From assembly GCA_014896315.1 (NCBI GenBank), contig JADBKP010000001.1, positions 327,557 to 391,556 of the forward strand: 64,000 nt of DNA, in the 5' to 3' direction. Source of the DNA: Limnochordales bacterium. GTDB lineage: Bacteria > Bacillota > Limnochordia > Limnochordales > DUMU01. A model generated the notes under the pieces. It worked only from the letters and a program-made list of their open reading frames with translations, made no database searches and was not told where the DNA came from. The position numbers and the translations under genes were made by a program. Within the stretch, counting starts at the first letter, position 1. Each line of letters starts with the position of its first letter. Below are positions 12,907 through 22,271 of the stretch, in pieces.

Positions 12907-13156
12907 GTACACACCCCCGTGATCGTTAAGTACATCGACTTACCATCTGCCGTATTCGGCAGCGGCAGCCTCGCTCCTGCGTCCTTCCCGGGCCCAACTG
13001 CAGAAAGAGGAAGACGGTCATCGGAATCGAACTAGACACCAGACAATGACAAGCGCCATGAAACTGGACAAGCAACAAGCACCCGGCCGAGCCAGCGTAC
13101 TCCATCCGCCGCAGGGTACGAACAGGGTACGAGATTCACGAAAGGGGAGGTTTGCC

Positions 13157-15646
13157 ATGGGAAGAAGAGGGCTAAGGGTAAGAGTCGTCCTGGCTCTGAC
13201 TGGCCTGATCTCGATACTGGCCATCGCCACGCACGGACTGGAGATGGAGGCCGGGCCGAGCGCGAACCCCGGCGTCGGGGCTGACCCGCACTTCCCGGCA
13301 GCCGCTGCACCACTTATCGGTATCGTCAACCGGGACGCGGATGCCAGCTGGTATGGTCCCCAGGAATGGGTCTCCTGGGTAAACGCTCTCACCTCTGTCC
13401 TCTCTGCCGAAGGGCTGGCCTTCGCTTACGTGGATGGCACCGAACTGGCCCGGGGAGACCTGGCCGGGTATGCCCTGGTCATCTTCCCCACAAACCCGGT
13501 CCTGACCGAGGCCGAAGTGGCCGCCGTCACTCGCTTCGTTGCCGGTGGCGGCCGGGTGCTGGCCTTTTGGGAGACAGGAGCATATCAGCCCGACCGGACT
13601 CTGCGCACAGAAAACGCTCTCGCTCCGGTCCTGTCGCTCCGCATGTACGGGGAAGATAGCGGCGCGGGCCGGTTCACCTACATTGAGAAGACCCCGGACG
13701 GGGCAGCCCTCTTTGCCGAACTGCCTCCTCTTGTTGCCACTGCGACGGCGCACCCGGTCATGCTGACGGCGCCCGCCGGGGATGCAATGGTGCTTGCCAT
13801 CTGGCTGGACAGCGACATGATCAGCCACTCCGCCCCCCGCGATCGGAACGCCGCCGCAATACAGGCTCCGCACGCGCTCTACATAGGCTATAACCTCCTG
13901 GCAGCCGCGGCGGGTAGCCCCGACTCCGACACTGGCTCCGACACTTCTCAGGTGCTGGCCGCCCGCCGGCTGCTCGCCAACGCGGTCCGCCTGGCACTGG
14001 GCGAAGAGGCCCGGGCCGAAGCAGAGCGGGCGGTCAACCAGGCAGGCGAGGCATTGGAGAAGGTGACGCAGGACCTCAACCAGGCCCGGCAGCGCCTGGC
14101 GTTCATCCCTTACGGGAAAATCGAAGCTCTGCTCGGCCAGACCCGCTCACAGTGGGAAGAAGCCAGGACCAGTCTCGCAACCGGCAACTTTGACGCAGCC
14201 CGGGAGGAGGCACTGGCCGCCTACCAGCTTGCCCTCAGCATATCCCCGTTGACCCAGGAGGTTCGCCCCGTCGGCCTGCGGGGAGCATGGATGGGAGCCG
14301 GGAGCCTGGCAGCCCTGGGGGGCCGCGCCGGGGTCAGACTCTTCCTCGACCAGATGCAGGAGCTGGGGATCAACACTCTCTTCCCGGAGATCATCCGCCG
14401 GGGGGTGGCCGCTTTCTGGACCGAAGTCGGCTACCGTGACCCCGCCTTCGCCGCCTGGACGGAAGATCCGTTGGCGGTACTGGTCGAGGAGGCACACCAA
14501 CGGGGTATCCAGGTTCATCCCTGGGTATGGGTCTTCAACGTCGGCATCGGCGAGGAGACCTCTCCCGTCCTCCGCGACCACCCTGAATGGCGAGAGCTCT
14601 CACAGAAGGGCGATCCGATCGCGCCGCCGTCCGGTTCATCCTGGCTCAACCCTTCCCTGCCGGAAGTACGCGAGTACCTGAAGAATCTCTTCCTTGAGGT
14701 AGTCACCCGTTATCCGGTCGACGGCATCCACCTTGACTACATCCGTTACCCTGAAAGCACCTCTGACGTGGTGTTCGGTTATTCCCCCGCTTCGGTGGCT
14801 GCGTTCATGGCCCGGTACGGGATCGATCCCCGAAAGATCCGTCCCGGCAGCCGCGAAGCAACGCTCTGGGACGACTGGCGGCGGGAGAACATCACCAGCT
14901 TCGTGCAGGAGGTGGCCGCGGCGGTGCGGGCAAAGCGCCCAGACCTCCTGGTCTCAGCTGCTGTCATTCCCGAACCCGACCGGGCCCGGAGCACCACCAT
15001 GCAGGACTGGAAGCTCTGGCTCGACCGCGGCTTTGTGGACTTCGTCGTCACCATGGCGTACTCCAGCAACGAACCGCTGCTGGAACGGTATCTCTCGCAG
15101 ATCGATGCCGCCGCCGGCAACGACAAGCTGGTCTTCCCCGGGCTGGCGGTCTGGGTAAACAACCCGGAGGCGCTGGTGCGGCAGGTAGCCATGGCGAGGG
15201 CACATAACGCCCCGGGAGAGGTATTCTTTGCCACCGACTACCTCTCCACCCAGCACCAGGAAGCGTTGCAGGCCGCCTTTTACCACCGGCCAGCGGTATC
15301 GCCGCTGGCCGACCCGGTGGGTGGCGCCGCCCTGGTACTGGCAGACCTGACCGCCAGGATCGAATTCTTCTACCAGATCGGGGCTCTCGACAACCCCGGC
15401 CGGCAGCAGTGGCTCGCCCGCCGGGATCAACTGGTCGACGCCTTCCTGGCCAGTGTCACGGACCAGGGCACAGCAGATCGTCTGGCCAGACGGTTCGCTG
15501 AGGCCCGGCCCAGCGTAGAGGTGGGCCAGGTTGACCCCTCTGCTTTCTGCCCGAACCGGTACTGGGTGCAACTCTCGCTCCAGCGGGATCTGGGACTGGC
15601 AACCCGCCTGCTGCGCTGGGCGGCCAGCCGTCCGTTCCTATGGTGA
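13157..15646 (+). CDS. Secreted GHL10 (family 10 glycosylhydrolase-like) protein
   Basis: Start ATG 13157 (MGRRGLRVRVVLALTG) follows GGGGAGG and gives 829 residues with an N-terminal signal. Residues about 50-290 form an alpha/beta domain (YALVIFPTNPVLTEAEVAAV, GGGRVLAFWETG) resembling a class I amidotransferase fold found in some glycosidases. A helical coiled segment follows (about 295-385, AERAVNQAGEALEKV). Residues about 390-700 are the GHL10 TIM barrel: RGAWMG, GINTLFPEIIRRG, HPWVWVFNVG, DGIHLDYIRYP and VTMAYSSNE. The D-Y-I-R-Y-P segment carries the likely catalytic carboxylate. The family is thought to cleave wall or glycosaminoglycan-type glycans. The end overlaps the convergent gene by 9 bases. 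Confidence 0.88.
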   Translation: MGRRGLRVRVVLALTGLISILAIATHGLEMEAGPSANPGVGADPHFPAAAAPLIGIVNRDADASWYGPQEWVSWVNALTSVLSAEGLAFAYVDGTELARGDLAGYALVIFPTNPVLTEAEVAAVTRFVAGGGRVLAFWETGAYQPDRTLRTENALAPVLSLRMYGEDSGAGRFTYIEKTPDGAALFAELPPLVATATAHPVMLTAPAGDAMVLAIWLDSDMISHSAPRDRNAAAIQAPHALYIGYNLLAAAAGSPDSDTGSDTSQVLAARRLLANAVRLALGEEARAEAERAVNQAGEALEKVTQDLNQARQRLAFIPYGKIEALLGQTRSQWEEARTSLATGNFDAAREEALAAYQLALSISPLTQEVRPVGLRGAWMGAGSLAALGGRAGVRLFLDQMQELGINTLFPEIIRRGVAAFWTEVGYRDPAFAAWTEDPLAVLVEEAHQRGIQVHPWVWVFNVGIGEETSPVLRDHPEWRELSQKGDPIAPPSGSSWLNPSLPEVREYLKNLFLEVVTRYPVDGIHLDYIRYPESTSDVVFGYSPASVAAFMARYGIDPRKIRPGSREATLWDDWRRENITSFVQEVAAAVRAKRPDLLVSAAVIPEPDRARSTTMQDWKLWLDRGFVDFVVTMAYSSNEPLLERYLSQIDAAAGNDKLVFPGLAVWVNNPEALVRQVAMARAHNAPGEVFFATDYLSTQHQEALQAAFYHRPAVSPLADPVGGAALVLADLTARIEFFYQIGALDNPGRQQWLARRDQLVDAFLASVTDQGTADRLARRFAEARPSVEVGQVDPSAFCPNRYWVQLSLQRDLGLATRLLRWAASRPFLW

Positions 15647-18600
15647 ACCGATGCGGCGCTGCCCGCGCCAGCCGTTCTGCATCAGGAAAAGCTCCTGGTA
15701 GGCCAGTTCGATGGCGCGGCTGCCGGGCGGATAAGGTCCGTCGACGATGAAGGAGAATGATTCGTCTGGAGCAGAGGTTGCGGCGGGCGCAGAAACCAGC
15801 TCGCTCCAGATGCCGCCCAGGGAAACAACGGCTGCGGGATCACCGACCACGATGAGGCTCTGGCGGGCGGCCGTGAGTAACCCGTAGACAAACTCGGGAT
15901 GCCGAGCAAGATATGCTCGGTGAACGGTGGGAGAGTCCGCTGACAGCACCAGGCTTGCCAGCACCACGTCAAAGCAGCGCCCGGAAAGAGCGTCCAGATG
16001 GAGGACGCAGATATCGGCTATCTCCTCGTAGCCGTCGGGCAAAAGGGCCGCCAGTTTGTGGAGCAGCAGATCCCGCTGGCGGGAGAATGGTGTGACGACG
16101 GCGACGGTCATGACGCCGGGCGCAGCCCCTTCACCCGCCGCTTTCCGGCCAAGCTTCTCCAGCCAGCCGCTGAGTAGCCGTAGGATGGCCTCCGCCTCGT
16201 CCAGGTTGTAAGCGCTGCCGCTGGCAGGAGAGTGGAGCTGCCCGCGGACAACCTCCCATCGGAAGGCAGAGGCTCCGGTCCGCTCTCCCCAAGCGCCTAC
16301 CGGTGGCCCGGCCGGCAACAAGTTTCCACCAAAGTAGAGACGGTTGAGTAACGTGCCGAGGGGAAAGGCCCTGTGGCGCAGGAATCCTTCCGCCGGCGCG
16401 TGGGGTTTCTCGGCGCTCTGCTGCTGCCGCTGCCAGCGCATACTGCTAACCGGCCAGCCATAGAGCACCCAGTCCAGCCCCAGCAGGCCGCAGGAGGATG
16501 CCAGCTGCTGGTGAACTTCGGGCGAACCCGTCCGCGAGTAGACTCTCTCGCCGAGGGCTTCTGCTTCGCTGCGGGCATCGCCCACCAGGACGACGGAGGA
16601 GGCGCGGGCTGCCAGGGGCAAGACGGCTGCCAGCGGTATTCCTTCCGCCCCGCCCACGACCAGCAGGTCAAAAAGGGCCGGCAGAGGGGGAAGAGGCTCC
16701 AGCGCGTCCGCCTGGGGCAGAATCCAGACGGGCAGGGCCGGCAGGATGGCGGCCAGGCTTTCGTTCCACGCCCTGTCCAGCTCCTGACCCGCCATCGAAC
16801 CGGCTGCCGCCGCCAGCTCAGCTTGCAGCCGCGGCAACAACTCGAGCCTGTCAACGACCGCGTCTGGTAGAGAGTCAAGCTCATACTCGCGGCGCGCCCG
16901 GGCTGCCTCCCGTGCCGCCTGCGCGAGCTTGGCCCAGCTTGCGGCCAGAAGGCGCGGCAGAGCTTGGGGCGAGTCCCACTCCCCCGCCCCGGCTTCTAGC
17001 TTCAGTTGCTGGTACCGCCCGAACAGCTCGGCGTACTTGAACGCCGCTCGCAGCAGGCGGAGCCTTTTCACCATCTCTTCGGCATCGTCAGAAAGAGGGG
17101 CAACGAACCAGTCACCGGAGTTGAGCCCTGCTCTATGAAGCAATGAACGAACCTGCCACTCAAGCTGCGACAGAACCCGGTGCCGGCGCCTCCGCGGCCA
17201 GAGACGCTCCCACCAGTACCACCGGCCGGCCGCCACCCGCTCGGCCTCAAGAAGAAGACCTTCCACTTCCTTGACCAATGCGCCGAACTCGCCGGCCGCC
17301 CTCTGGACCTCACGCTCCGCCAACGTCAGTAAGGAGGACGGAAGGGCCGCGGCGGTCTCCTTCAGCTCCTTCTCCAGGGCGGCCAGGTTCTTGCCTGCCT
17401 CAGCAGCGCGTTGAACCATCTCCTCGCACTGCCGCAACTCCTGCCACGCTGCGCCAAGTTGCCCCTCGCAGCCCAGTGCGAACCTCTCAGCGGGCGGTGG
17501 GGCCAGCGGGCGACGGCAACGGAGCACCCACTGAAGGTCTGCGAACACCCGTTGGCGCTCCACCGCTCCGCCCCAGATGGCGACGGTGGGCAGAGAAGTG
17601 ATTGTAGCGAAACGGTGATGAATCTCTCGCGCTTCGGTCTCGCCGGGAACGAGAACCAGCACCCGCTGCCCTGCATACCAGCCGTTCAGAATCAGATGGA
17701 AGAGGTACTCCTGCAGGTGATCGCCAGCCGGCACATCGAGGTAGACCCAGCCCCGGCGGCGGGCAGCCATTCGCAATACCCGGCCCATCCGTTCACGTTC
17801 CGCCGGACTGAAAGGAGAAAGAAGCAGCGGAAGGTGGGTGGCAGAAGCCCCGTCTGGCTGCGGAGGCTCGCCGTCCTGAGAGGTTCCATCCGCTGTTTCG
17901 TCCAGGTTCATCGCCGGTTCTTCGACTCGGTCCTGCGCCCTGCTGCTGTCCTGGCCTTCGCCTTCGGCCCATAGCTCTCCCAGCACTGCCGGTCTTTCCA
18001 GGAGGTACTCCCAATCCTCCCACAGCCAGAGCGGCAGCCGCGGGCTTGGCCCCCGAAAGAGAATCGCACAGTCGTAAACGGCGGGTGCAGGGCCTCCGGC
18101 GCCGGCATTGACATCGGCCTTGACCTGGGCCTCGGGCCTGGCTTTGGCTGCAGCCCGGGCTGCGGCCCGGGGCAACGTGCAGGCCCCAAGCTCTGACTCG
18201 GCCTTCAGCTCTGCGGCGGCTCTTGCGGCTTCGCCCGAGCTGGCAGCTTCGGCCTCAGCCTGAGCCACAGCCCGGGCTTTGCCTTCGACCGCCGCCGGCA
18301 ACGCGCCCTCCTGCAGGGCACCGGGCACGCGGCCTTCGCCCGGCCACGGCCCCGGCCCAAGCTCTAGCTCCTCGACCAGCGACGCCAGCGCAGCTTGAAA
18401 GGCCTCAACCCTTCGCGGGCCGGGTTCACTCCCCTCGGCCAGCACCCCCCGCAGCACCATCAACTTCCTCCAGATGAGCCGCCGGCGTTGCGCATCGGCC
18501 GGAATCAAAGCTGGGTTGATCTGGAGCTCTTCACCGGAGACCGGCCAGGCAGCAAAAAGTACCGGCAGAAATTCACCGCCGGCGCAAACAACGAGGGGAT

Positions 18601-18988
18601 AACCATAATAGACCGTTTCCGCTGCGAGACGGGCCGTCCGTTTCAACCACCGACTCAGCTCACCGGATTCTGAGTCACCCGGACCCCCCGGCTCTCCCGG
18701 GTGCACCGGCCAATCCCTGACAGGAAGCGACCGCCACTTGCCCCGTTCGTTCTCACCTGACCCGAACAGAGGATCAACACCCGCATAAAAGATAAACCGG
18801 CTCCCTTCCTCTTCACGGTGAAAACGGAAGCCGGTTTCGGACGCGCTTTCACTGGCCGCGGCCATCGCGTAGTATCGGATCAACTCCGTCCGGTTCAAGC
18901 CGGCTGCCGGCTTGCGCCGGGGATCGCCAACCAGGGCGGAACGGGCTCCCTCCACTTCCGTCTCGCCTCCCTGCCCCTCTACCGACAC
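15638..18988 (-). CDS. Upf1-type superfamily 1 helicase homologue with all ATPase motifs lost
   Basis: This 1116-residue protein has the architecture of Upf1/DNA2-like SF1 helicases, but its catalytic motifs are eroded. The Walker A position (residues about 418-427, DVPAGDHL) has no GKT, although motif Ia (RVLVLVPGETEAREIHHRF) follows as expected. A coiled-coil insert of about 250 residues comes next. Motif II reads FDLLVVGGAEG (D774 onward), with the DE pair replaced by GG. LNRLYFGGNLLPA matches the segment after motif IV. VAVVTPFSRQ (T966) and DALSGRCFDVVLASLVL match motif V and its surroundings. Motif VI LLTAARQ (T1039) has lost its arginine finger. Residues about 210-300 are an Ala/Glu-rich linker. 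The GTG start is uncertain; a GTG 11 codons later has a better ribosome site. It is cytoplasmic, presumably a nucleic-acid or partner-binding scaffold. Confidence 0.7.
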   Translation of the reverse strand: MSVEGQGGETEVEGARSALVGDPRRKPAAGLNRTELIRYYAMAAASESASETGFRFHREEEGSRFIFYAGVDPLFGSGENERGKWRSLPVRDWPVHPGEPGGPGDSESGELSRWLKRTARLAAETVYYGYPLVVCAGGEFLPVLFAAWPVSGEELQINPALIPADAQRRRLIWRKLMVLRGVLAEGSEPGPRRVEAFQAALASLVEELELGPGPWPGEGRVPGALQEGALPAAVEGKARAVAQAEAEAASSGEAARAAAELKAESELGACTLPRAAARAAAKARPEAQVKADVNAGAGGPAPAVYDCAILFRGPSPRLPLWLWEDWEYLLERPAVLGELWAEGEGQDSSRAQDRVEEPAMNLDETADGTSQDGEPPQPDGASATHLPLLLSPFSPAERERMGRVLRMAARRRGWVYLDVPAGDHLQEYLFHLILNGWYAGQRVLVLVPGETEAREIHHRFATITSLPTVAIWGGAVERQRVFADLQWVLRCRRPLAPPPAERFALGCEGQLGAAWQELRQCEEMVQRAAEAGKNLAALEKELKETAAALPSSLLTLAEREVQRAAGEFGALVKEVEGLLLEAERVAAGRWYWWERLWPRRRRHRVLSQLEWQVRSLLHRAGLNSGDWFVAPLSDDAEEMVKRLRLLRAAFKYAELFGRYQQLKLEAGAGEWDSPQALPRLLAASWAKLAQAAREAARARREYELDSLPDAVVDRLELLPRLQAELAAAAGSMAGQELDRAWNESLAAILPALPVWILPQADALEPLPPLPALFDLLVVGGAEGIPLAAVLPLAARASSVVLVGDARSEAEALGERVYSRTGSPEVHQQLASSCGLLGLDWVLYGWPVSSMRWQRQQQSAEKPHAPAEGFLRHRAFPLGTLLNRLYFGGNLLPAGPPVGAWGERTGASAFRWEVVRGQLHSPASGSAYNLDEAEAILRLLSGWLEKLGRKAAGEGAAPGVMTVAVVTPFSRQRDLLLHKLAALLPDGYEEIADICVLHLDALSGRCFDVVLASLVLSADSPTVHRAYLARHPEFVYGLLTAARQSLIVVGDPAAVVSLGGIWSELVSAPAATSAPDESFSFIVDGPYPPGSRAIELAYQELFLMQNGWRGQRRIGSP

Positions 18989-19027: not shown

Positions 19028-19276
19028 TCAGAGGGCCGCCTTCCGCTTAGCCTTCTCCAGCTCGGACTTGTCGTCCTTGTCCACCAGAGTGATGACCGCC
19101 TTGAACAGTTCCTCTGCCGCCGCTTTGCGATCCGGGTAGACCTTGTCGGCCACAGCGGCGTCTACGGCCTGACGCAGCGCCGTCTCCACACTTAACCCGA
19201 TCTTTCTCGCGTTAAGGAAGATACCGACATACTTCTGCTTTGGGTCTTTTTTGCCCAGGAACGAAAAGAGTCCCAT
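19028..19276 (-). CDS. Small hypothetical protein (82 aa)
   Basis: ATG 19276 (MGLFSFLGKKDPKQKY) lies behind a GGGGGG-containing ribosome site. The protein is charged, with predicted helices (VETALRQAVDAAV, KAAAEELFKAVITLVDKDDKSELEKAKRK) and no cysteines or membrane segments. I do not recognise it. It lies between the P-type ATPase gene (40 bases) and the helicase-like gene (39 bases) on the same strand, so all three may be co-transcribed. Confidence 0.6.
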   Translation of the reverse strand: MGLFSFLGKKDPKQKYVGIFLNARKIGLSVETALRQAVDAAVADKVYPDRKAAAEELFKAVITLVDKDDKSELEKAKRKAAL

Positions 19277-19316: not shown

Positions 19317-22271
19317 TCACTTTCCTGCCGGGTGAGTCTGCCGCCGGCCGGCAATCATCCGGGAAACGGCCTTCACCAGCTCCACCACGGTCAGCACGGC
19401 CAGCGCTGCCAGGGAGACGAATCCCCAATCCTGCCAGGAGAGGGGTGTCACATCGAAGACCGGCCGCAGTACGGGTATGGTGAGCACGGCAAACTGCAGC
19501 ACCAACGAGGCGGCGACCGCCACCAGCAGTGCCCGGTTCTTGAACCATCCCAGCGTGAAGATGCTCTGCGTCAGCGAGCGGGTGTTGAAGCTGTGCAAGA
19601 GCTGCACCAGGGCTAAAGTCATGAAGGCCACCGTCTCGGCCCGCACGATGTCACCCCTGGTCAGCATCTCCCAGCGATAAACCGCCAGCGTTACCAGGCC
19701 AATCAGCACTCCCTGCCAGGCAATATGCCACCCCAGGCCCCGGGAGAAAATGCCTTCCTTCGGGTCACGAGGCCTCTCGTTCATCACACCTTTCTCCGGC
19801 GGCTCAACCCCCAGGGCCAGCGCCGGCAAACCATCGGTGACCAGGTTGACCCAGAGGATCTGGATAGGCGTCAGCACGCGTCCCCACCCCAGGACGATGC
19901 CTAAGAAGATAGCGACTATCTCGCCAATATTGCAGGAAAGAAGATAATGAACCACCTTGCGGATGTTCGCATAGATCACCCGGCCTTCCCGGATGGCCGA
20001 CACAATCGTGGCAAAGTTGTCATCCGCCAGGACCATGTCAGCCGCACCCTTAGCCACGTCGGTTCCGGTTATCCCCATGGCCACGCCGATGTCGGCGCCT
20101 TTCAGTGCCGGAGCATCGTTGACGCCGTCCCCCGTCACCGCCACCACATGCCGGTGCGCCTGCAGCGCCCTGACAATGCGGAGCTTGTGCTCGGGCGCGA
20201 CGCGGGCATAAACCCGCACCCGCGGGCTGACTTCGATCAGACGAGCATCATCCATCTGTTCGAGCTCGGCACCGGTCAGCGCCTGGCTACCTTCCTCCCA
20301 GATCCCGAGCTCCCGGGCGATGGCAACGGCCGTCGCCTTGTGGTCACCAGTGATCATGACCGGCCGGATGCCCGCCCGGTGGGCGGCCGCCACCGCCTCC
20401 TTCACCTCGGGCCGCGGCGGGTCAATCTCCGCCACAAAGCCCAGGAACACCATCTCAGCCTCGACCTCCTCCGCCCGAAGCTCCTGCGGACGGAGATCCC
20501 AAATCCTGTAGGCAACCGCCAGAACCCGGAAGGCCTGTTCGGCCAGGGATGCTGCCACACCCAGAATCTGCTGGCGCTCCTCGCTGCTTAGCGGGTAGAC
20601 TTCTCCATCCTTGAAGATATGCGTGCACCGGAAAAGTACTTCTTCGGGCGCCCCCTTCGTGAACGCCACTTCGCAAGCCCCTACCTGCCGGCCGCCCTCC
20701 GCGCTGGCCCCCCCGGCCTCGCCCGGGGCACAAGCCACACCGTCGGCCGTACCCGCACCCGCAGCCGCTGCCGCACTACCGCTTGCCCCTCTCTCCCAGG
20801 GCCAGGCCAAAAGCAGCTCGCCCGGAATTTCCGTCCTGCCGCCGGCGGCGGAGGCGACCTTGTGGAAAGTGGTCATCCGTTTGCGTGACGATTCGAAGGG
20901 TATCTCAGCAATTCGCGGATAGACCCTGTTCAACAACTTAAGATCCAGGCCGGCCTTCTCTGCCGCTACCAGCAGCGCCCCCTCGGTGGGGTCACCGATG
21001 ACCCGCCGGCCGCCCTCTTCCTTCGGCCGTTCCTCGAGTCGGGCATCATTGCACAGGCTCATAGCAGCCAGCAGAGCCGTCAATCCCGGCTCGTGCTGGG
21101 GAACAACCGCCTTCCCATCCAGTTGGATCTCGCCGCGCGGCTCATATCCTTCGCCGGTCACCGTATAGAGCCGGCCGCCGCTGAAGATGCGCACCACGGT
21201 CATCTCGTTCTTTGTAAGCGTACCCGTCTTGTCAGAAGCGATCACCGTAGCCGTACCCAGCGTCTCCACCGCCGGCAAGCGACGGATGATCGCCCGGCGC
21301 CTCGCCATGCGCTGCACGCCCAGGGCCAGGACGATCGTCACCACTGCCGGCAGACCCTCAGGAATTGCGGCCACTGCGAGGCTGATGGCGGTCAGGAACA
21401 TCTCCAGAACCGGCTCGTCCCGCAGCAACCCGGCTACGAAGACAATGGCGACCAGAATCCCGGCCAGCACCCCAAGAGTCCGGCCCAGCTCCGCCATGCG
21501 CCGCTGCAGCGGAGTCTCCTCGGCCTCGCCTCCCTGAAGCATTCCGGCAATGCGACCGATCGCAGTGTTCATCCCGGTCGCGTACGCCACCGCCAGCCCC
21601 CGCCCGTAGCTCACCGTGGTGCTCGCAAAGACCAGGTTGTGCATGTCGCCCAGCGAGTTGCCCGCCTCCGGCGGCAGTTCACCGGCGTGCTTCTCGACCG
21701 GCACCGATTCTCCCGTAAGGGCCGACTCATCTACCCGGAGGTTGGCTGCCTGGATGATGCGGGCGTCGGCCGGGACCAGGTCGCCTGTTTCCAGCCGAAT
21801 GATATCGCCCGGTACGACCTCTGCTGCGGGAATCTCCACAAACTGCCCGCCCCGCAGCACCCGGGCTTTGGGTGCGCTCATACGCTTGAGCGCCGCCAGC
21901 GCCTCCTCGGCCCGGCTCTCCTGTGTCACGCCCAGCACCGCATTGACTATAACAATCAGCAGAATGGCGGCCGCGTCGACCCACTCGCCCAGCAACCCTG
22001 AGATGAGCGCCGCACCGAGAAGAATGAGCACCAGCACCTCCTTGAGCTGGTCGAACAGCTTCTGCCAGAGCGTACGGGGAGGTGCCTCCTCTAGCTGGTT
22101 TGGGCCGTACTGTTCAAGCCGGCGGGCTGCCTCTTGCGGGCTGAGGCCGTTCTCCGGATCCGAGCCGAGTTGCTCGAGAACCTGCGCCGTCGGCCGCTGC
22201 GACCAGAGCGTCAGCTCCGACAGGTTCTGACCCGCCGTCTCCCCGGTTTTGGCTGTCATCGCCACACTCAT
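19317..22271 (-). CDS. P-type cation-translocating ATPase (P2A, Ca2+/Mn2+ type)
   Basis: The protein has 984 residues with a full P2A layout: cation-ATPase N-terminal region (about 25-95), TM1-2, actuator domain with LTGES, TM3-4 with IPEGLPAVV (the PEGL ion-binding motif), phosphorylation site DKTGTLT at D347, nucleotide domain, MITGDH, TGDGVNDAPALK, and a C-terminal membrane bundle with the usual NxxxD ion-site helix (LWVNLVTDGLPALALG). It expels Ca2+ or Mn2+ from the cytoplasm using ATP. A yybP-ykoY riboswitch immediately upstream argues that Mn2+ is at least one substrate. A low-complexity Ala/Gly insert (about residues 485-540) interrupts the nucleotide domain. The start ATG has GAGGAG 10 bases upstream. 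Confidence 0.95.
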   Translation of the reverse strand: MSVAMTAKTGETAGQNLSELTLWSQRPTAQVLEQLGSDPENGLSPQEAARRLEQYGPNQLEEAPPRTLWQKLFDQLKEVLVLILLGAALISGLLGEWVDAAAILLIVIVNAVLGVTQESRAEEALAALKRMSAPKARVLRGGQFVEIPAAEVVPGDIIRLETGDLVPADARIIQAANLRVDESALTGESVPVEKHAGELPPEAGNSLGDMHNLVFASTTVSYGRGLAVAYATGMNTAIGRIAGMLQGGEAEETPLQRRMAELGRTLGVLAGILVAIVFVAGLLRDEPVLEMFLTAISLAVAAIPEGLPAVVTIVLALGVQRMARRRAIIRRLPAVETLGTATVIASDKTGTLTKNEMTVVRIFSGGRLYTVTGEGYEPRGEIQLDGKAVVPQHEPGLTALLAAMSLCNDARLEERPKEEGGRRVIGDPTEGALLVAAEKAGLDLKLLNRVYPRIAEIPFESSRKRMTTFHKVASAAGGRTEIPGELLLAWPWERGASGSAAAAAGAGTADGVACAPGEAGGASAEGGRQVGACEVAFTKGAPEEVLFRCTHIFKDGEVYPLSSEERQQILGVAASLAEQAFRVLAVAYRIWDLRPQELRAEEVEAEMVFLGFVAEIDPPRPEVKEAVAAAHRAGIRPVMITGDHKATAVAIARELGIWEEGSQALTGAELEQMDDARLIEVSPRVRVYARVAPEHKLRIVRALQAHRHVVAVTGDGVNDAPALKGADIGVAMGITGTDVAKGAADMVLADDNFATIVSAIREGRVIYANIRKVVHYLLSCNIGEIVAIFLGIVLGWGRVLTPIQILWVNLVTDGLPALALGVEPPEKGVMNERPRDPKEGIFSRGLGWHIAWQGVLIGLVTLAVYRWEMLTRGDIVRAETVAFMTLALVQLLHSFNTRSLTQSIFTLGWFKNRALLVAVAASLVLQFAVLTIPVLRPVFDVTPLSWQDWGFVSLAALAVLTVVELVKAVSRMIAGRRQTHPAGK

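Follow-up and report, generated by a model that had tools for sequence, protein, structure and literature searches.

A probable retained pseudohelicase derived from an SF1B helicase-nuclease in a clade of Limnochordia

Can a bacterial helicase be retained once the residues that drive its motor are gone? The question is raised by an uninterrupted minus-strand open reading frame of 1,116 codons, at positions 15638-18988 of a 64,000-nucleotide stretch of a Limnochordales contig (hereafter the window). An earlier note had described a long, intact frame of 1116 residues encoding a Upf1/DNA2-type SF1 helicase without ATPase motifs. Its length and integrity were confirmed, and a plus-strand reading of the same interval was ruled out by many stops. 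The protein has 1116 aa when read from the GTG at 18988; the GTG at 18955 is the likelier start, because a ribosome-binding-like GGGAGG stands just before it and because it matches the start of orthologue L010. The product, about 1,105 to 1,116 aa long, is acidic (net charge −24, pI 5.45).

Two further genomes carry an orthologue lacking the helicase motifs (the dead form, see below): one of the same genus (41% identity) and one of a second genus (37%) in a shared family-level group. In a scan of a public genome set they appear as a MAG of Bacillota and one of Limnochordaceae, with no other hit. Every one of the three genomes of this group within Limnochordia thus has the dead form; no orthologue was found in the order's remaining eleven genomes, nor in the rest of 73 genomes that represent the class. 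Outside the clade no member was confirmed in a collection of about 85,000 species genomes searched by two peptide patterns only, nor in 398 genomes across the phylum, where the hits read were active relatives; IMG/VR, plasmids and phages gave none. In a tree the three dead proteins, which are the whole of the dead set and have diverged far both from one another and from the active proteins, were monophyletic with a support of 100/100. Since they form one such clade, the catalytic loss, as far as the sequences tell, most likely happened once, before the three genomes split.

Which family does the protein come from? Its sole Pfam match was AAA_12 (residues 922-1050, E 1.7e-7, above the cut-off); AAA_11 was not found directly by Pfam, nor was a nuclease domain, and NCBIfam gave no match. 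Weak phmmer matches to UPF1 structures covered the same part as AAA_12. A profile of the three dead proteins led to proteins of about 950 to 1,100 aa in other Bacillota, which carry AAA_11 and AAA_12 and, in 3 of 4 cases, a C-terminal MTES_1575/DUF559 nuclease (Pfam); three further active relatives came from contigs of a viral collection. Aligned by hhalign, the dead and active profiles matched with a probability of 100 and an E of 2.7e-42 over 892 columns, and we conclude from this alignment that the window protein is by descent a member of the Upf1-like SF1B helicases, in line with the initial assignment.

The active relatives match the PADLOC models MkoC, MkoA and PDC-S37. The window protein itself matches MkoC over residues 882-1051 only (E 2.2e-10), far less well than the active relatives, which are themselves not shown to be Mokosh. 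In Mokosh type II, MkoC bears a phospholipase-D-type nuclease domain at its C-terminus; Pfam detected no such domain in the window protein. At L039 4264-6000, L048 722-1801 and L051 943-2079, active relatives lie near genes for MmeI-type restriction-modification, Fic/DOC and phage integrase, a setting that fits mobile or defence islands. In the same-genus genome, an active-type helicase frame with DEASQSD (L024 352-3403) is preceded by a chimeric frame whose N-terminal half resembles an IS-element transposase and whose C-terminal half resembles the insert of the helicase, which looks like a defence helicase disrupted by an IS. Another genome of the order, G005, holds a 406-aa fragment (L041 5190-6407, minus strand) that keeps DEASQCD and FQGDECD while the rest of the helicase is missing; this is genuinely a decaying copy, with a pattern opposite to that of the window gene. 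The window's own genome held no active copy of the subfamily at E 1e-10, which ruled out such a copy as a partner.

To locate the former motifs, all on the minus strand, the three dead proteins were aligned with seven active homologues and the motif columns compared. At motif I (Walker A, 17708-17737) the window protein reads DVPAGDHLQE for TGPPGTGKSQ; all active relatives have GPPGTGKSQ in this column, and the dead three VPAGDHLQE, FPQGDGEIE and LPAGEAEQD. Motif Ia (17621-17650) reads VPGETEAREI for SKNNxAVDVV, and SKNNxAVD is lost in the dead proteins, as are the motif IIIa residues. Motif II (Walker B, 16625-16660) reads VVGGAEGIPLAA for VVDEASQCDIAS, the active DEASQCD being replaced by GGAEGIP, LRAERIP and VGAERIP. 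The sequences that had been quoted in place of the P-loop (DVPAGDHL) and of motif II (VVGGAEG) were therefore present and fell in the right columns, and the loss of both motifs is fixed in 3 of 3 orthologues. Motif III (16559-16591) reads VLVGDARSEAE for VVIGDPxQLxH (column: active GDPxQL; dead GDARSE, GDASEE and AGTSSP), and motif V (15947-15997) LDALSGRCFDVVLASLV for VHKFQGDERDVMIFSPV, with LSGRCFD in the window protein and LHGTEEWP and LAGVRAD in the other two where active proteins have FQGDERD. At motif VI (15839-15886), YGLLTAARQSLIVVGD stands for NVAITRARAALIVVGD, and the active TRAR has become TAAR, ARAR and KAAV. The reported replacement of the motif VI arginine by alanine (LTAARQ) is correct for the window protein and does not extend to the family: the arginine is absent from two of the three proteins, L011 having VKAAVQ, and L010 keeps IARARE. 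Motif IV (16076-16108, TVAVVTPFSRQ) is the sole helicase motif kept in all three orthologues, which share VVTPFxRQ; a GSAYNLEEAEA segment is likewise retained in 3 of 3.

A pattern search of the three orthologues found no [GA]xxxxGK[ST], GK[ST] or hydrophobic-DE motif anywhere, and thus no P-loop, DE box or other normal motif at an alternative position. The hallmarks of a functional SF1B enzyme, Walker A GxxGxGK[ST] and Walker B DE, are lacking in all three proteins, and the motif VI arginine in two. Of the 100 positions at which the active proteins are invariant, all three dead proteins agree with them at 24 and none does at 46. Gly/Pro residues were retained most often (73%), hydrophobic ones less (40%) and polar or charged ones least (24%), a pattern from which it follows that the fold was preserved and the chemistry was not.

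The second activity has gone as well. At the C-terminus (15641-15739, minus strand) a remnant of the MTES_1575/DUF559 nuclease is left, GPYPxG...YRELxLxxxGWRGRR, without the LDxA...xIEVDGxxYH core; in the alignment this core (LDxA, ExDGxxYH) is deleted in the dead proteins and the flanks GPYP and GWxGRR remain. This nuclease loss, read from the alignment, is an addition to the earlier note, which had missed the remnant. Three other regions stand out, again on the minus strand. The N-terminal region (residues ~35-209, 18362-18886) has EEGSRFxFxSGPDPLxG and YGYPLVV conserved in the 3 orthologues, the YGYP part being present in active relatives also. A long helical insert (residues ~500-750, 16739-17491) carries a conserved GRWxWxERLWPxRR; the large coiled-coil insert proposed at first does exist as a helical insert but is no special feature of the pseudohelicase: a helical segment occupies the corresponding position in active relatives. 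RecA-like domain 2 (residues ~905-1066, 15791-16276), which contains the AAA_12 match, is the best-kept part.

A first structural model, built from the three dead sequences alone, had SETX, Aquarius, IGHMBP2, UPF1 and Sen1 as its best Foldseek matches and was taken as a hint only, owing to its mean pLDDT of 46. A second model, of the core, had active homologues added to its alignment and is hence not independent of the homology claim; it reached a mean pLDDT of 66 (about 75-90 in the RecA parts) and matched the Upf1/Sen1/Aquarius family with Z 16-18 over about 330-370 residues. The rmsd of these matches was high, which points to a different or uncertain placement of the domains. DinG-type and NS3 helicases also appeared in the VIA-align list, at Z 13-15, and therefore indicate a shared RecA fold only. 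The predicted fold is thus consistent with SF1 RecA domains of the SETX/Aquarius/UPF1 family. Neither of the two outcomes by which the earlier note would have been refuted, a missing structural match to SF1 RecA folds or normal motifs at other positions, was observed.

Directly upstream of the pseudohelicase gene is a gene for an 82-aa protein (19028-19276, minus strand), and upstream of the latter one for a cation-transporting P-type ATPase (19317-22271, minus strand), an arrangement found in 3 of 3 genomes. The three genes are on one strand with short gaps and possibly form an operon; their steady linkage suggests co-expression rather than a demonstrated functional link. The 82-aa protein has no Pfam match. 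Its relatives (L085, L086 and L087), which belong to two further families of the class and share about 40-46% identity with it, adjoin an apparent arginine/lysine-type decarboxylase gene, as judged by eye from the translation. It was rejected as a fixed partner of the ATPase, since neither an ATPase nor a pseudohelicase could be detected within about 1.5 kb of these relatives; the linkage is therefore peculiar to this clade. Downstream, a gene for a GHL10-type putative secreted glycosyl hydrolase (13046-15646, plus strand) is convergent, the 3′ ends overlapping by nine bases; the same-genus genome has this convergent neighbour too, the other genus does not. With these three neighbours, no AddA/RecB-like partner gene lies beside the pseudohelicase.

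We consider that the gene encodes an ATPase-dead and nuclease-dead descendant of an SF1B helicase-nuclease, probably retained as a pseudohelicase that acts as a non-catalytic binding or scaffold protein. Motif losses, constraint, fold and monophyly all support the retained non-catalytic helicase that had been proposed. In the ancestor a Upf1-like (SF1B) helicase carried a nuclease of PD-(D/E)XK type (MTES_1575/DUF559) at its C-terminus; of this enzyme, a body of two RecA domains, a long helical arm and the conserved N-terminal region may have been kept as a binder or scaffold, as in RecC/AddB and D. radiodurans PriA. Neither the usual ATP binding and hydrolysis nor cutting of nucleic acid would be expected of it. 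Having no P-loop, it should be incapable of ATP-driven movement or unwinding, and its action would consist in holding on to a partner. Given the acidity of the protein and the loss of motif Ia and V residues, we think that this partner is more likely a protein than bare nucleic acid, with the reservation that motif IV TPFxRQ is retained.

That same motif IV, together with the GSAYNLEEAEA segment in 3 of 3 orthologues, the predicted retention of the fold and the analogy with AddB/RecC and D. radiodurans PriA, speaks for a nucleic-acid recognition subunit of the AddB/RecC kind, in which the former translocation groove would read or hold DNA or RNA without ATP. We regard this as possible and somewhat doubtful, given a pI of 5.45 and a net charge of −24, the loss of motif Ia, IIIa and V residues, and the lack of an adjoining RecB/AddA-like gene.

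Is the gene under selection at all? Among the dead trio, dN was 0.64-0.72 and dN/dS 0.35-0.38 at a dS of 1.7-2.0, which is saturated; identity was about 0.56 and 0.57 at first and second codon positions against 0.38 at third ones. The three orthologues hold no stop at about 40% identity, whereas neutral simulation at d = 1.7 gave a mean of 16-26 stops and about 11% identity. Judged by these substitution patterns, the pseudohelicase is under constraint since the loss of its catalytic motifs. Conservation of the motif regions is 0.4-0.6 among active relatives versus 0.33-0.41 among the dead, and that of the N-terminal region and insert 0.16-0.24 among active relatives (0.16-0.19 for insert identity); the dead proteins reach 0.48 over N-terminal stretch 61-120 and 0.31-0.40 in the insert. 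Conservation is thus, in these comparisons, inverted: the catalytic motifs drift, and the N-terminal region and helical insert stay as well or better kept.

A relic, that is a dead helicase-nuclease in slow decay, of little or no present function and with a frame left open by chance, would fit a gene confined to three genomes that evolves faster than its neighbours (37-41% identity versus 60-76%), and the constraint is indeed weaker than for an ordinary enzyme, as the gene outpaces them. We nevertheless think it unlikely: three lineages at saturated dS show neither stop nor frameshift, dN/dS is 0.35-0.38, neutral drift would by the simulation have left 16-26 stops and about 11% identity, and the true wreck in the same order, the G005 fragment still with DEASQCD, looks different. 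The claim that the gene is not a decaying pseudogene is supported by this constraint. A third reading is that the protein is catalytic again through a newly evolved active site. New shared residues do occur at old motifs, such as AExIPL in place of motif II and PxG in place of motif I, but at the former catalytic site they are for the most part hydrophobic or Gly/Pro, and nothing matched a motif or family of known NTPases or nucleases, which makes this reading highly improbable.

Going one step beyond the retained pseudohelicase that we prefer, we tentatively suggest that a lineage-specific helicase-nuclease of anti-phage type was domesticated. Deprived of its two activities, it would have taken on a structural or sensor role with a new partner, and selection would have moved away from the motor towards the N-terminal region and the insert.

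The description of bacterial pseudohelicases as little described was overstated, and we tone down the claim of novelty because bacteria already offer established examples in RecC, AddB and D. radiodurans PriA. The inactivated helicase domains of AddB/RecC are thought to recognise Chi (PMC4824097), and D. radiodurans PriA has no ATPase activity, yet binds DNA and interacts with DnaB (PMC4504706). A match to AAA_12 or to a defence-helicase profile alone is no proof of an active enzyme. With the active SF1B-MTES_1575/DUF559 helicases the window protein shares length, domain order, the N-terminal YGYP and VYNxAxLF segments, the helical insert, RecA2 segments and the nuclease GW; unlike them, it has lost the helicase motifs and the nuclease core, and its gene is chromosomal and adjoins housekeeping-type genes. 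With Upf1, IGHMBP2, Sen1 and Aquarius (SF1B) it shares a predicted RecA1-RecA2 core (Z 16-18), but not the residues for ATP binding or translocation. Like the N-terminal domains of AddB/RecC, it is a bacterial SF1 fold kept by selection without most helicase motifs; those domains, however, are UvrD-type (SF1A) and complexed with an active helicase, whereas the window protein is SF1B with no such partner nearby. It resembles D. radiodurans PriA in the lineage-wide loss of ATPase/helicase motifs from an otherwise intact bacterial protein, and differs in that PriA is SF2, with a known replication-restart role without ATPase. The bacterial pseudohelicases of established role thus belong to known complexes or pathways; here a defence-related SF1B helicase-nuclease lost motor and cutter together and is still selected across a family-level clade, a clean case for asking why a helicase fold persists after ATPase loss.
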